NCBI GenBank assembly: GCA_021779735.1
Contig: JAJYAC010000011.1
Location: 1-37,303 of the forward strand
Direction of reading: 5' to 3'
Origin: Actinomycetes bacterium
GTDB taxonomy: Bacteria > Actinomycetota > Acidimicrobiia > Acidimicrobiales > RAAP-2
Length of the DNA stretch: 37,303 bases
A program made the translations under genes and the position numbers. Below the pieces are notes generated by a model that saw only the letters and a program-made list of their open reading frames with translations, did no database searches and was not told the DNA's origin. Of the stretch, positions 9,052 to 26,217 are shown piece by piece (the stretch's first letter is position 1; each line of letters opens with the position of its first letter).

Positions 9052-9624
9052 ATGACCTCATTTAGACAATTCTTAAGAGTCGGACTGGCCCCCGTGGCCG
9101 CCCTCAGTCTCACCGGTGTCGCGTCGGGTGTGCTTGCCCCGGCCGCCCACGCGGCATCGGTGGCACACGTTCTCAAGGTGACCAAGGTGCCCTTCAGGGG
9201 CACTTACACCGGCACGATCGCCATGCTCTGGAACGCGAACAGCGTGTCGGCGACGGCCGTGCGCGGTACGGGCACGGGCACGCTCGTGGGCAAGAGCACC
9301 GTGGTGGGCTCGGGCACGGCGGTGACCTCGAGTACCTGTGACCCGCTCTCGGGCACCGGGTCGATCACCGGCAGCGGCTCGAAGCTGATGCTCAAGGTCG
9401 TCTCGTCCTCGGCGACCAAGGCCTGTGCGGCCGCCGAGAGCGCGCCGACCACGGTGACCGTGACCGGCGTGGCGAAGGTCACCGGCGGCGTGGGCAAGTA
9501 CAAGGGCGCCTCCGGCACGCTCAAGATCAACGGCTCCTTCCAGATCCAGTCCAACAAGGCCGGCTCGAGTGAGACCGACACGTTCAAGGCGACGCTCTCG
9601 GGCGTCATCACCATTCGCAAGTAG
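9052..9624 (+). CDS. secreted beta-rich protein of unknown function
   Basis: The 190-residue product has a signal peptide of about 34 residues with an AHAA cleavage region. The mature part is rich in Thr, Ser, Gly and Val, with alternating hydrophobic residues typical of beta strands. A pair of cysteines (STCDPLSG and TKACAAAE) may form a disulfide. The stretch TGGVGKYKGASGTLKI resembles a motif found in many small secreted actinobacterial barrel-like proteins. No catalytic motif is visible. There is no ribosome site; the promoter at 9017-9045 suggests a leaderless message. It heads a set of three exported-protein genes and is likely controlled by the divergent LysR protein. Confidence 0.8.
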   Translation: MTSFRQFLRVGLAPVAALSLTGVASGVLAPAAHAASVAHVLKVTKVPFRGTYTGTIAMLWNANSVSATAVRGTGTGTLVGKSTVVGSGTAVTSSTCDPLSGTGSITGSGSKLMLKVVSSSATKACAAAESAPTTVTVTGVAKVTGGVGKYKGASGTLKINGSFQIQSNKAGSSETDTFKATLSGVITIRK

Positions 9625-22163: not shown

Positions 22164-22871
22164 CTAGTCAACGGTGGAGTCGGGGTGGGCCTTGAGCCAC
22201 GCCTCGTCGCTCGCCTCGTCGCGGCGCTGGCGGCGCAGGTGCATCACCCACACGAGGGCGATCACGACCACGAGCAGTCCAATGCCGGCCCAGCTCGCGT
22301 ACTTCTCGATGCGCGACAGCGCCGAGCCCGCGAAGTAGCCGAGTAGCGCGTAGCCCACGCCCCAGATGAGGCCCCCGAGGGAGTTGGCCACGAGGAATCG
22401 CCGGTAGTGCATCTTGCTCATGCCCGCGAGTCCCGGCATCACCGCGCGCAAGAAGGCGGTGAAGCGTCCGACGAAGACGTAGATCGGCCCGCGCTGGCGC
22501 AGGCCCTCGAGGGCGCGCGAGAGCGCCACCTGGCGATGTCGAATAACCGGCAGCTTCAAGAGTTGCTCGCCGTAACGGTGTCCAATGGCGTAACCCACCG
22601 AGTCGCCGATGATGGCCGCGGCGACCACCAGCACGCACAGCACCGCGATGTTGACGTGACCCTTACTCGCGATGACCCCGGCGACGATGACCGAGGTCTC
22701 CCCGGGCAGGACGAAGCCAATGAAGAGGGCCGCCTCACCAAAGACGAGCAGAGCCACGAGCGCGTAGACCAGTCCCCCCGAGAGCTTCTGGAGCTCGTTC
22801 ATGATGGAAGACACGATGGTGGCGCTGACCATCTGACCATTGTGGTGGAAAAAAGTCAGCCCGCGCGCCAT
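22164..22871 (-). CDS. DedA-family membrane protein
   Basis: The 235-residue protein has the DedA/SNARE-associated hallmarks FIGFVLPGETSVIVAG and GRFTAFLRAVMPGLAGMS, several membrane segments, and a basic cytoplasmic tail. DedA proteins act in lipid (undecaprenyl phosphate or phospholipid) flipping and membrane homeostasis. The ATG at 22871 is chosen because GAAAGG lies upstream; later ATGs at 22832 and 22802 have no ribosome site. It diverges from the DoxX-Rieske gene with only 42 bases between the starts, so the two may share regulation. Confidence 0.9.
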   Translation of the reverse strand: MARGLTFFHHNGQMVSATIVSSIMNELQKLSGGLVYALVALLVFGEAALFIGFVLPGETSVIVAGVIASKGHVNIAVLCVLVVAAAIIGDSVGYAIGHRYGEQLLKLPVIRHRQVALSRALEGLRQRGPIYVFVGRFTAFLRAVMPGLAGMSKMHYRRFLVANSLGGLIWGVGYALLGYFAGSALSRIEKYASWAGIGLLVVVIALVWVMHLRRQRRDEASDEAWLKAHPDSTVD

Positions 22872-22913
22872 CGGTGGCCTTTCCCCAGCGCGCGCACTGT
22901 GACAGCATGGGAC

Positions 22914-24143
22914 ATGCCCAGCACGCGTCCCGTACGTAGCCCCTCGCGCGCGCGCGCGCCCGAGCGACGACTTCCCCTGAACGCGCCCGTGCGCGCCTGG
23001 GCGATGAGCGAGTGGGCCCTCTTGCCCCTACGCGTCTTTCTCGGGGTCACCTTCGCCTACGCGGGCTTACAGAAGCTCGCCAACCCCAACTTCTTGAACG
23101 CCGCGAGCCCCGTCTCGATTCAGTCCCAGATGATCGCGAGCGCGCGAATCAGCCCGATTCACCTGATTCTCAGCCACCTGGTGCAGTTCGCCAAGCCCCT
23201 GGGTCTCGTGATCGCTCTCGGGGAGGTGGCCATTGGCGTGGGCACGCTCGTGGGCCTGTGGACGAGGGCCGCGGCCCTGGGTGGGGCAGTCCTCTCCTTC
23301 ACCCTCTTTCTCACAGTGAGTTTTCACGCGTCGCCATACTTCACGGGCGCCGACATCGTGTTCTTCTTCGCCTGGCTGCCCCTCGTGCTCGCCGGTGGGG
23401 GTTCACGGCTCTCCATTGACTCGTGGATCGCCACGCGCGCGGCCAAGATGGAGGGCGCGCCACCGCCCGCGCTGGTGGCGATTCCCTTTATCAAGGTCCA
23501 GCAGCTTTGTGGCCACTTCAACCGGGGTCGCTGTAACGCGCGCGAGGGCCTGCGCTGTGAGGCAGCGGTCTGTCCTATTCTCCTGGGCGAGCGCGCGCCG
23601 ATGGTCACGCGCGTCACGATTGACTCGGTCGATCGGCGCTCGCTGGTGCTCGGTGGCGCCGCCGCGGCCATGGTGGGCACGACGGCCGCCCTGATGGGTG
23701 GCGCCGTCGCGGCGGTGGGCCGCGCGATCGGGGGAGCGAAGCCGGCGGTGGGCCCCAACCAGCTCGGCGCGACGACGACGACGGCCGCGGGGGCGGGCAA
23801 GACTACGACCACCACGAACGCGACGACGTCGGCGCTGGGCACCAAGCTCGGTCCGGCGAGCGACGTGCCGGTGGGCAACGCGGCGACGTTCTCCATCCCC
23901 TCGAGCGGGGATCCGGGCATCGTCGTCCAGGCGGTCAAGGGTCAATTCGAGGCCTACGACGCGGTCTGTCCCCACGCGGGTTGCACCGTGGGCTACTACG
24001 CGGCCAACCAGGTGCTGGCCTGTCCGTGCCACGGCTCGCAGTTCATGCTCGACACGGGCGCGGTCATCAATGGTCCCGCCCCGCACGGCCTCACCAAGCT
24101 CAACGTCACCGAGGGTCCCGACGGTAACCTCTACCTCAAATGA
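22914..24143 (+). CDS. DoxX-like membrane domain fused to cysteine cluster and Rieske [2Fe-2S] domain
   Basis: The 409-residue protein runs in one frame without a break. A basic N-terminus precedes four DoxX-like helices (about residues 34-50, 93-115, 120-138 and 146-162). A basic linker follows with C199-x7-C207-x7-C215-x4-C220 and a His at 201. Then come a Tat-like VDRRSLVLGG, a fifth helix, a Thr-rich linker (287-306) and a Rieske domain with C352-P-H354, C357, C370-P-C372-H373. The cluster ligands and both disulfide cysteines of high-potential Rieske proteins are present. Positive-inside topology puts the four cysteines in the cytoplasm and the Rieske domain outside. A role as a quinone-linked redox protein is inferred; the nearest known idea is DoxD/DoxA thiosulfate:quinone oxidoreductase. 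The start is uncertain (ATG 22914 or ATG 23004; neither has a ribosome site). The stop overlaps the response regulator start. Confidence 0.85.
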   Translation: MPSTRPVRSPSRARAPERRLPLNAPVRAWAMSEWALLPLRVFLGVTFAYAGLQKLANPNFLNAASPVSIQSQMIASARISPIHLILSHLVQFAKPLGLVIALGEVAIGVGTLVGLWTRAAALGGAVLSFTLFLTVSFHASPYFTGADIVFFFAWLPLVLAGGGSRLSIDSWIATRAAKMEGAPPPALVAIPFIKVQQLCGHFNRGRCNAREGLRCEAAVCPILLGERAPMVTRVTIDSVDRRSLVLGGAAAAMVGTTAALMGGAVAAVGRAIGGAKPAVGPNQLGATTTTAAGAGKTTTTTNATTSALGTKLGPASDVPVGNAATFSIPSSGDPGIVVQAVKGQFEAYDAVCPHAGCTVGYYAANQVLACPCHGSQFMLDTGAVINGPAPHGLTKLNVTEGPDGNLYLK

Positions 24144-24826
24144 GTGAAGAACGGCGCCGGGTGCTCGTGATCGAGGACGATCACGACCTGGCCCGGGCCG
24201 TGGCCGACCTGCTGGGCGACGAGGGCTTTGACGTCACGATGCGCCACGACGGCGAGTCCGGCCTCGCCGAGGGGCTGCGCAGTGACTACGACGTCATCGT
24301 GCTCGACGTCATGTTGCCCAAGCGAAACGGCTTCTCGGTCTGTTTGGACCTGCGCGGCGCGGGCGTGCACACGCCCCTCTTGATGCTCACCGCCAAGGAC
24401 GGCGAACTCGACGAGGTCGAGGGGCTCGAGGTGGGCGCCGACGACTTCTTGCGCAAGCCCTTCGAGCGCGCGATTCTCATCGCGCGTATTCACGCCCTGC
24501 TTCGTCGTCACGACCGCGAGCGCCCCCAGCCACTCGTGGTGGGCGCGGTGGCCCTAGATCCCATCAGCCGCCACGTCGTGAGCCACGGGCGCGACATCAC
24601 GCTCACCCCGCGCGAATTCGCGCTGCTCGAGTACCTGATGAATCGCACCGGGGTCTCGATCGCCAAGTCCGACATCCTCGAGGCCGTCTGGGGCAGCTCC
24701 TTTGACGGCGATCCCAACATCGTCGAGGTGTACATCGGCTACCTGCGGCGCAAGATCGACGTGGCCGACCGGCCGTCGATTATCCGCACGGTGCGCGGCG
24801 TGGGTTACAGCGTCCGCGAGGACTAG
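24140..24826 (+). CDS. OmpR/PhoB-family response regulator
   Basis: The 228-residue protein has an N-terminal receiver domain with acidic residues at 12-14, the phospho-acceptor D56 (VIVLDVMLP), T84 and K106. A C-terminal winged helix DNA-binding domain ends in the typical RTVRGVGYSV hairpin. It is an output partner of the kinase encoded next. The ATG overlaps the DoxX-Rieske stop (ATGA), and its stop shares one base with the kinase start, so all three are likely translated from one message. Targets are unknown; the upstream redox protein is the first candidate. Confidence 0.96.
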   Translation: MSEERRRVLVIEDDHDLARAVADLLGDEGFDVTMRHDGESGLAEGLRSDYDVIVLDVMLPKRNGFSVCLDLRGAGVHTPLLMLTAKDGELDEVEGLEVGADDFLRKPFERAILIARIHALLRRHDRERPQPLVVGAVALDPISRHVVSHGRDITLTPREFALLEYLMNRTGVSIAKSDILEAVWGSSFDGDPNIVEVYIGYLRRKIDVADRPSIIRTVRGVGYSVRED

Positions 24827-26217
24827 TGGCCCGGCGCGAGCTCTCGATTCGGGCGCGCCTGACGCTCTTCTTCGTCTTGTCAGTCACCGTGGTGCTCGTC
24901 TTCACCGGCGTCGCGCTCGTCAACCTCGTGCATCGCTCGCTCGTGACCTCGGCCAACGACCAGGTCCAGGGCGCGATCGTGGCTACTCAGGACTACCTCG
25001 CGCACACGACGTTGCCGTCATCAAAGGTGGCCCTACCCATTCACGGCGACGTCGTGGTTCAGGTGACCAACGCGGCCGGCACCACCGTGTGGGCCGCGAG
25101 CTCGCCCATCGTCGAGGCGCCCGTGCTCGCCGTGGCCTACGGGGTCAACTCGGCGATCAGCGACTACCGCCTGCGCATCGTCGCGGCCTCGAGCGCGGTC
25201 GTCGACGTCTCCCAGCTGACCCAGGGCCAGGTCCAGACGGTCTCGACGAGTCGAGGGCCCGGGCTCGTCTTCGGCTTCGTCTACGGCACCTCGATCACCC
25301 ACAGCGTGACGATCCTGCTCGCGAGCGTCGTCATCTCCTTTCCCCTCCTGCTCATGCTGGCCGGCGGACTGATCTGGTACGCGCTGGGACTGGCCCTCGC
25401 GCCGGTCGAAGCCATTCGCCGACGCGTGGAGCGCATCGCCTCGCGCGACCTCTCCGAACGCGTGCCCGTGCCCGGCGGCGACGATGAGATCGCGCGCCTC
25501 GCGCGCACGCTCAACGCGATGCTCAATCGCCTCGAGGCCGGGTCGAAGTTCCAGCAGGAGTTCGTCTCCAACGCCAGCCACGAGCTGCGCTCACCGCTCA
25601 CGACGCTGCTCGCGACGGTCGAGCGCGCCGCGAACGACCCCGACCGGGCCGACTGGCCCGCGACGGCCGAGACGATTCGCCGCGAGGGGCGACGGCTCGA
25701 CGGGCTCATCGACGACCTGTTCTGGCTCGCGCGCCACGACGAGAACCAGATCGAGGTCGTCGCGGTGGAGGTCGACCTTGATGACTTGCTCTTCGAAGAG
25801 GCCGAGCGGGTACGCGCGATGAGCGACGTCTCCGTGGACACCTCGGCCGTGACGCCCACCCGGGTGATCGGCGACCCGCGGCTTCTAAAGCGCATGATTC
25901 GCAACGTCGTCGACAACGCGGTGCGCCACGCGCGCGAGAGCCTCGCCTTCACCTCGCGCTACGACGGGGCCCTTGGCGTCGTGACCGTCGCCGACGACGG
26001 CGAGGGCATCGACGTCGAGCAGAGCGGGCGCTTCTTCGAACGCTTCGTGCGCGCCGACCCCGCGCGGGACCGCCAGACGGGCGGCACCGGGCTCGGGCTC
26101 TCGATCGTCACCGACATCGTGTCGCGCTACGGGGGTTCGGCGCGCTTCGTGGACGTCGCGAGCGGCTCGACGATCGAGCTGCGCGTGCGCGTCGACGGCA
26201 CGCGCGACGGGACTTAG
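24826..26217 (+). CDS. membrane sensor histidine kinase
   Basis: The 463-residue kinase has TM1 (about residues 11-34), an extracytoplasmic sensor region of about 120 residues, TM2 (about 162-190), a HAMP linker with LAPVEAIRRRVERIA, and a HisKA domain with phospho-acceptor H252 (SNASHELRSPLTT). A catalytic ATPase domain follows with N box (NVVDNAVRHA), G1 (ADDGEGI), F box (FFERFVR) and G2 (GTGLGLSIV). All boxes are intact. The sensor region is not a recognised domain and has no cysteines, so the signal is unknown. It starts with a GTG overlapping the response regulator stop by one base. Confidence 0.96.
   Translation: MARRELSIRARLTLFFVLSVTVVLVFTGVALVNLVHRSLVTSANDQVQGAIVATQDYLAHTTLPSSKVALPIHGDVVVQVTNAAGTTVWAASSPIVEAPVLAVAYGVNSAISDYRLRIVAASSAVVDVSQLTQGQVQTVSTSRGPGLVFGFVYGTSITHSVTILLASVVISFPLLLMLAGGLIWYALGLALAPVEAIRRRVERIASRDLSERVPVPGGDDEIARLARTLNAMLNRLEAGSKFQQEFVSNASHELRSPLTTLLATVERAANDPDRADWPATAETIRREGRRLDGLIDDLFWLARHDENQIEVVAVEVDLDDLLFEEAERVRAMSDVSVDTSAVTPTRVIGDPRLLKRMIRNVVDNAVRHARESLAFTSRYDGALGVVTVADDGEGIDVEQSGRFFERFVRADPARDRQTGGTGLGLSIVTDIVSRYGGSARFVDVASGSTIELRVRVDGTRDGT

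Follow-up and report, generated by a model that had tools for sequence, protein, structure and literature searches.

A DoxX-Rieske fusion protein encoded with a two-component system: a probable redox module of Acidimicrobiales and related bacteria

What might a membrane protein do that joins a DoxX domain to a Rieske iron-sulfur domain, and why should its gene run directly into those of a two-component system? These questions are raised by positions 22914 to 26217 of a 37,303-nucleotide (nt) stretch of actinobacterial DNA, here called the window (GenBank assembly GCA_021779735.1, contig JAJYAC010000011.1), which is contig C7 of a 1.7-Mb genome that is in 108 contigs and 88.7% complete. The stretch encodes a DoxX-Rieske fusion protein, an OmpR-family response regulator, and a sensor histidine kinase, in that order. 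Given the recurrence of this set in dozens of related species, the fusion and the signaling pair are probably a real, undescribed redox module. The reading that we favor, at a probability of about 0.5, is that the fusion protein is a quinone-linked electron relay and that the two-component system encoded with it controls its expression.

One reading frame joins DoxX and Rieske domains

The first-pass annotation of this DNA described one unbroken frame running through both domains, and its frames and coordinates (22914-24143 for the fusion) were correct. Pfam matches were collected for the fusion and nine neighbors at E ≤ 0.01. The fusion scored above the family cut-offs for DoxX (38.9 bits versus 23.6), DoxD (33.9 versus 22.7), and, over residues 312-394, Rieske (PF00355; 48.3 versus 20.3), and it belongs to all three families. 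The open frame extends 5' of the ATG to 22407.

The joined frame is common among relatives. A contig scan with a DoxX-domain alignment detected at least 548 relatives in 595 matched stretches, of which the best 80 were kept as loci; the nearest named relatives are mostly titled Acidimicrobiales or Acidimicrobiaceae. Further samples comprised 198 genomes drawn from the order and 246 from the phylum, the window's own order included. DoxX and Rieske share a single frame in 76 of the 80 loci (one of these, L108, is open at a 5' contig end), which rules out an assembly error or a chance fusion; the remaining four either run off their contigs in the 3' direction (L107 and L121) or shift frame at N bases (L058 and L087). 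The annotation had named separate DoxX and Rieske genes in close relatives with no kinase nearby, or an assembly error, as what would overturn its claim; separate genes were not found among the 80 loci. By our own count, 20 of the 198 order genomes carry the protein: 17 as single-frame fusions, 2 cut by contig ends (G142 and G047), and 1, G157, interrupted. The other matches listed for these 198 genomes cover the Rieske part only. Genuinely separate genes were considered and rejected, since the parts are split in G142 only by contig ends, in L058 and L087 by N bases, and in G157 by an insertion. The inserted sequence in G157 (L052, 8431-9657) is a transposase-like frame, of the IS605 OrfB/TnpB type as judged by eye.

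The fusion also extends beyond these close relatives. In the phylum sample, the DoxX part was detected in nine genomes from two other families (f73 and f107), and both parts in six of these (E ≤ 1e-15). Of five loci from these families, L164, L165, L166, and L168 have a single-frame fusion, whereas L167 runs into a contig end. In two more, L202 gave a single alignment across both parts, and L203 has the two in the same frame. Among plasmid records, the only matches were to the Rieske part, in four Deinococcus plasmids. Five loci (L092, L094, L105, L106, and L118) are titled Acidobacteria, and their fusions are nested among those of Actinomycetota; the label on the public record of L106 is probably wrong, its fusion being identical to that of G193, a genome of the window's genus.

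AlphaFold2 modeling with 40 relatives (mean pLDDT, 77.5) gave four membrane helices in the DoxX part, up to about residue 164, and a long fifth helix; the Rieske fold was predicted with confidence and the linker poorly. Twin arginines precede the fifth helix in all of the 92 fusions tallied except L090 and L132; with an even number of helices ahead (4 + 1 in the model), this is the arrangement of proteins that use both Sec and Tat. The 25 residues after helix 5 hold a mean of 2.0 K/R. Both ligand motifs occur in every one of the 92 fusions and, with their two additional cysteines, place the domain among disulfide-type Rieske domains. By comparison with bovine bc1, the ligands are presumably C352, H354, C370, and H373, and the disulfide C357-C372. 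The ligands are among 37 columns invariant across 40 aligned fusions, as is an acidic residue, E72 (trimmed numbering), of the DoxX part. The solved structure closest to the Rieske part is the soluble domain of a Chlorobaculum Rieske protein (8hn2_A; Z = 14.3, root mean square deviation 1.1, 96 residues), and arsenite oxidase small subunits and PetC3 rank just below it. The DoxX profile had no match at E ≤ 1 among the sequences of solved structures; structure comparison paired the DoxX part with NACHO/TMEM35A (9h9e_B; Z = 10.9 over 122 residues), a value that may reflect only a common arrangement of helices, as Z below ~13 can for helical bundles.

The fusion cannot be taken for the cell's bc-complex Rieske subunit. 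A QcrC-QcrA-QcrB cluster of the usual kind is present in the genome, as is another QcrC-QcrA pair, so the fusion is a further, separate Rieske protein. It scored 47.8 bits against the QcrA model NF050121 (cut-off, 275), fell under the cut-off of every matching bc/b6f NCBIfam model, and had no cytochrome b among the neighbors scanned. The cluster and the pair (L002 and L003, on G000:C61 and G000:C37) were named by eye, and the pair is ended by a contig end.

The fusion recurs beside a regulator and a kinase

The overlaps noted in the first-pass annotation are present: the fusion stop codon (TGA, 24141-24143) and the regulator ATG at 24140 share four bases (ATGA), and the regulator stop codon (TAG, 24824-24826) and the kinase GTG at 24826 share one. 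Gene order and overlaps suggest that the three genes form one operon, and the first overlap suggests that fusion and regulator are translationally coupled. The regulator belongs to the OmpR/PhoB family (Response_reg, 83.4 bits; Trans_reg_C, 85.5 bits). The sensor part of the kinase, which the annotation had left unassigned, still has no assignment: a subthreshold match to CusS is the only Pfam hint, and the only fold matches at E ≤ 0.001 were to WalK and a chemoreceptor, both of them integrative models.

The annotation further held that a recurring kinase-regulator pair would support a system, and the pair does recur. Seventy of the 80 loci could be assessed for a downstream regulator (6 were excluded as ending within 1,500 nt, 3 as lacking a single frame, and 1 as cut). 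In 47 of the 70, a regulator on the strand of the fusion lies directly behind it, and the other 23 have none there; the exact ATGA overlap is found in 42. The five loci without it have GTGA (L080) or a gap of 22 to 79 nt to the longest open regulator frame (L081, L083, L114, and L124). A kinase frame follows the regulator in 44 of the 47, in two pieces in L083; the contigs of the other three (L065, L084, and L095) end in the regulator. L058 and L087, outside this count, have the same fusion-regulator ending. In a tree of the fusions made by a quick method and having 28 open forks, all 42 ATGA loci fall in one group of 48 rows, here clade A (support 88, not starred), which also holds the window, L053, L055, L080, L082, and L083. 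In clade A, 45 regulators were counted in 222 kb near the fusion (within 2.5 kb) versus 0 in 504 kb of further flank.

The association is not confined to clade A. Elsewhere, 9 regulators were counted in 196 kb near the fusion versus 5 in 402 kb farther off (rate ratio, 3.7; binomial P = 0.016, uncorrected for kinship). Pairs lie beside the fusion in a convergent orientation in G091, G124, and, at ~1.8 kb, G045; divergently in G090; and upstream on the same strand in G081. Of 7 loci fetched from f73 and f107, 6 have a divergent regulator beside the fusion, and 5 of these 6 (not L166) also have a kinase match. A tree of 47 regulators places at least three separate lineages next to fusions: lineage A, the window type, which includes L039, L043, L081, L114, and L124; lineage B (L035 to L037, L050, and L090); and lineage C (L164, L165, L167, and L168), with L128 apart. 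On this tree, the label "adjacent" must change five times, and starred branches make four of these changes unavoidable; one of the five is due to L043_1, which is labeled adjacent and lies ~7 kb off. Because the fusion adjoins separate regulator lineages, divergently or convergently, in other families, the pairing arose more than once. In G021 (L204, 5263-8842), the fusion lies between two frames that resemble secreted beta-propellers by eye, near another regulator-kinase pair. The features of the locus are collected in Table 1.

Table 1. Features in and beside the putative operon (window coordinates)
Feature	Position	Strand	Basis
DoxX-Rieske fusion protein, 409 amino acids (aa) from ATG	22914..24143	+	Reading frame; Pfam; similar N-terminal peptide in relatives by eye
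DoxX domain (Pfam span)	23016..23327	+	Pfam DoxX, residues 35-138; DoxD, residues 37-180; AlphaFold2 helices
Predicted cytoplasmic four-cysteine linker motif, C-x7-C-x7-C-x4-C-P	23508..23573	+	Between helices 4 and 5; low model confidence
Twin-arginine motif (R241-R242) and fifth helix	23628..23729	+	RR in 90/92 fusions; helix 209-239 of trimmed model
Rieske [2Fe-2S] domain	23847..24095	+	Pfam; both motifs in 92/92 fusions; fold match
OmpR-family response regulator	24140..24826	+	Pfam Response_reg and Trans_reg_C; start overlaps fusion stop (ATGA)
Sensor histidine kinase	24826..26217	+	Pfam HAMP, HisKA, and HATPase_c; ~120-aa extracytoplasmic part (model; alignment of 46 kinases)
VTT/DedA-type membrane protein, divergent, with the same upstream region	22164..22871	-	Pfam; within 5 kb in 39/48 clade A loci; syntenic neighbor

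A proposed quinone-linked relay under its own two-component system

In the reading that we favor, the four DoxX helices would be inserted by Sec and form the quinone-interacting part of the protein, and the fifth helix, behind its twin-arginine motif, would be inserted by Tat, leaving the folded Rieske domain outside. The protein would act at the membrane as a one-electron relay between the quinone pool and an extracytoplasmic partner, and the OmpR-type pair would sense an extracytoplasmic or membrane condition and set expression of the operon. The sequences themselves show the domains, the frames and their overlaps, the recurrence of the set, the pairing of the fusion with several regulator lineages, and, in some relatives, the direct repeat described next. 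We infer that Tat exports the Rieske part, that the protein binds quinone, that electrons flow through it in one direction or the other, and that the operon is autoregulated.

OmpR-type regulators often recognize TAA triplets 11 bp apart. When up to one mismatch is allowed, a direct repeat with this spacing, GATAANNNTTNNNTAAG, occurs upstream of the operon in 13 of the 48 clade A rows versus 0 of the 44 others; it is exact in 8 clade A rows, among them L055 and L053 (the contig of the latter ends at the fusion stop codon). In 12 genomes (the window's and 11 picked from clade A), there are nine exact copies, seven of them at this operon, and the reversed control has none. The idea that the repeat is a general site of the system was rejected: the window has none, and the other two exact copies lie elsewhere. 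A second element, resembling TGTGGCANNATG, was seen by eye in many relatives, ending a few bases before the fusion start (~22890 to 22914 in the window; also in the upstream regions of L054 to L109); judged from the sequence, it suggests a -10 box and a leaderless message.

Several observations weigh against this relay and its autoregulation. Helix 5 has a Kyte-Doolittle value of 1.95, versus 1.54 to 2.08 for helices 1 to 4, and is not less hydrophobic on this scale, which departs from the published Sec/Tat signature of a last helix of low hydrophobicity followed by positive charges. No catalytic partner was recognized among the neighbors scanned or the recurrent ones, which outside clade A were clustered and identified in part. 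Near the window's operon there is no copy of GATAANNNTTNNNTAAG within two mismatches, and its genome has no exact copy; stray copies with one mismatch, five in all, lie at other places in L085, L113, L127, and L042 (two in L042). The repeat lies between divergent genes and so could serve the VTT gene; its absence from the VTT-bearing loci L033, L034, L039, and L047 speaks against that role. Because synteny is broadly kept in clade A (the VTT gene, MGMT in 37 of 48 loci, ECH, and others), these loci are not independent. Finally, G168, of the window's genus, has lost the fusion and kept the regulator (76% identity) and the kinase (66%), and a lineage A pair elsewhere in G045 (C3:9705-10361; L175 and L201) has no fusion in the 10 kb fetched. 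Since these two pairs stand without a fusion, such regulator-kinase pairs have other uses. The G168 locus (L141, on G168:C34) shows a deletion scar at ~9220 to 9300, the last codons of the lost gene standing directly before the intact regulator.

Could the fusion be an accessory of the kinase?

The main rival is that DoxX-Rieske serves the kinase as an accessory, as SaeP and SaeQ serve SaeS of Staphylococcus aureus: the redox state of the quinone or the Rieske cluster would reach the kinase through the membrane or the four-cysteine linker and shift its kinase/phosphatase balance. We regard this as possible, although unlikely. The gene order matches saeP-saeQ-saeR-saeS, and the available portions of two Sae papers describe SaeQ as a predicted DoxX-family protein, SaeP as a DM13 protein, SaePQ as binding SaeS and inducing its phosphatase activity, and a reduced-quinone signal as a proposal (PMC7189620, PMC5083920).

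The linker also bears on this alternative. Its cysteines in the window, counted by hand, are C199, C207, C215, and C220. The linker matches no Pfam family in the window, and in one relative it has a weak match to DUF2237 (E = 0.09, below the cut-off). Among 92 fusions, a tally that excluded a contig only where it ended within 700 nt, 75 have a linker of this kind (49 with a regulator directly downstream, 23 without, and 3 not assessable) and 17 lack it (15 without such a regulator and 2 not assessable). Every fusion directly followed by a regulator thus has the four cysteines (49/49), and none of the 15 judged cysteine-less fusions has such a regulator (Fisher P = 6e-7, kinship ignored). The extracytoplasmic part of the kinase has no conserved cysteine across 46 aligned kinases, the window's included, which also counts in favor of this rival. 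However, a kinship-aware test of the link leaves four independent pairs, of which one to three agree and none disagrees, and this is not significant. The lineage C fusions, L043, and L050 also adjoin regulators and lack the cysteines. A strict coupling of linker and regulator was therefore rejected: it holds by count, is lost after kinship correction, and fails in lineage C. The kinase, moreover, has a full extracytoplasmic sensor, which SaeS does not.

The partings of the modules also tell against an accessory. The first-pass annotation tied the fusion to the kinase; this stands as a recurring operon, but the kinase is not obligatory. Within the genus, the fusion is present in five of six genomes (in G142 as two contig-end pieces) and a kinase orthologue in three of six; three fusion-bearing genomes (G110, G193, and G074) gave no kinase match at E ≤ 1e-40, and G168 has the converse. 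Of the 70 assessable fusions, 23 have no regulator behind, and of 19 genomes (20 loci) chosen because none was seen directly there, 18 lack a kinase match at E ≤ 1e-60. Among the 20 loci, L116 ends too early to judge and L090 has a divergent lineage B regulator. The sole kinase-positive genome, G208, apparently has its pair behind an insertion: frames resembling SRPBCC, TetR, and MBL proteins by eye (L163, 7278-7809; L055, 11140-12992) part the fusion from the regulator, and the final codons of the fusion are duplicated just ahead of the regulator. In L082, neither the pair (its genome has no kinase match) nor the cysteine linker is present, and the gene after the fusion is related to the window's HTH_67 gene, which there comes after the kinase. 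The many genomes with a fusion and without this kinase favor an effector that works by itself, as a relay would. The partings are nonetheless compatible with an accessory, because SaePQ is described as dispensable for activation of SaeRS (PMC5083920). The more specific proposal that DoxX-Rieske is a transmembrane redox sensor, passing the state of quinone or Rieske cluster to a cytoplasmic four-cysteine switch and on to the kinase, like Sae with an iron-sulfur input, is doubtful.

Donor-side oxidation and shared descent as further rivals

A second rival is an oxidase on the donor side, of the kind of thiosulfate:quinone oxidoreductase: a substrate outside the cell would be oxidized, and the Rieske domain would hand the electrons to quinone through DoxX. 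The DoxD match above cut-off and the nearness of the Rieske fold to arsenite oxidase small subunits, as well as to bc/b6f Rieske proteins, lend this some support, as does the clustering of doxDA with a two-component system in Acidithiobacillus caldus described in the part of PMC5093147 available. Such an oxidase nevertheless seems improbable, since neither the fusion nor its nine scanned neighbors have a DoxA domain among their Pfam matches and no catalytic subunit was recognized among recurrent neighbors. The layout of fused DoxDA, four helices and an anchored outer domain, is comparable, and we know of no catalytic site for thiosulfate in a bare Rieske domain.

That the fusion and the kinase pair are unrelated and merely held together by regional synteny would agree with the span of that synteny in clade A and with the loss of each part alone within the genus, and is very improbable given that the ATGA overlap is retained in 42 of 70 loci and that two or more additional regulator lineages, in other orientations, are also paired with the fusion.

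Comparison with known systems

The first-pass annotation did not recognize this system as described. Full-text searches (DoxX or DoxD with Rieske; DoxX with two-component, quinone, and membrane), judged by titles and the starts of abstracts, returned no description of a DoxX-Rieske fusion; the parts and layout, on the other hand, have precedents in SaePQRS, A. caldus doxDA, and KSE_30950. The combination thus appears to be undescribed within the literature searched.

The Rieske subunits of cytochrome bc and b6f complexes share the fold and both cluster motifs with the fusion; QcrA differs in having three helices and sitting in the bc complex. DoxDA of A. caldus shares the DoxD-type membrane domain and, according to PMC5093147, lies in a cluster with a two-component system, RsrSR, that regulates it; it differs in having DoxA in place of Rieske and tetH in the cluster. 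Known dual Sec/Tat proteins (actinobacterial QcrA, the Sco3746 family, and KSE_30950) have, in the part of PMC5449189 seen, an even number of helices, twin arginines, a last helix, and an outer cofactor domain. Tooke et al. describe five-helix Sec/Tat families there and list KSE_30950 of Kitasatospora, a Rieske homologue with five predicted helices and twin arginines before helix 5; that paper does not use the word DoxX. The fusion adds another family predicted to need both pathways.

The closest published layout is SaePQRS, in which, as far as the available portions of PMC7189620 and PMC5083920 go, a DoxX-family protein and a putative electron-transfer outer protein precede regulator and kinase. 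Judged by gene order and overlaps, the locus likewise has a DoxX-family gene upstream of an OmpR-type regulator and a kinase in one putative operon. The sae promoter has SaeR sites, GTTAA-N6-GTTAA, as an 11-bp direct repeat, like the spacing of GATAANNNTTNNNTAAG (PMC5083920). In contrast, Sae has two separate accessory genes; SaeP is a DM13 lipoprotein, where the protein here has Rieske and no DM13; SaeS has just a 9-aa linker between its helices; and those portions make no mention of a four-cysteine linker. DM13 is thought to be related to electron transfer, and the route from respiratory state to the Sae system is described as unclear (PMC7189620). Here the cluster, visible to spectroscopy, is part of the DoxX protein itself, and close relatives with both modules, the fusion alone, or the kinase pair alone make a link from quinone redox state through DoxX to a kinase directly testable.

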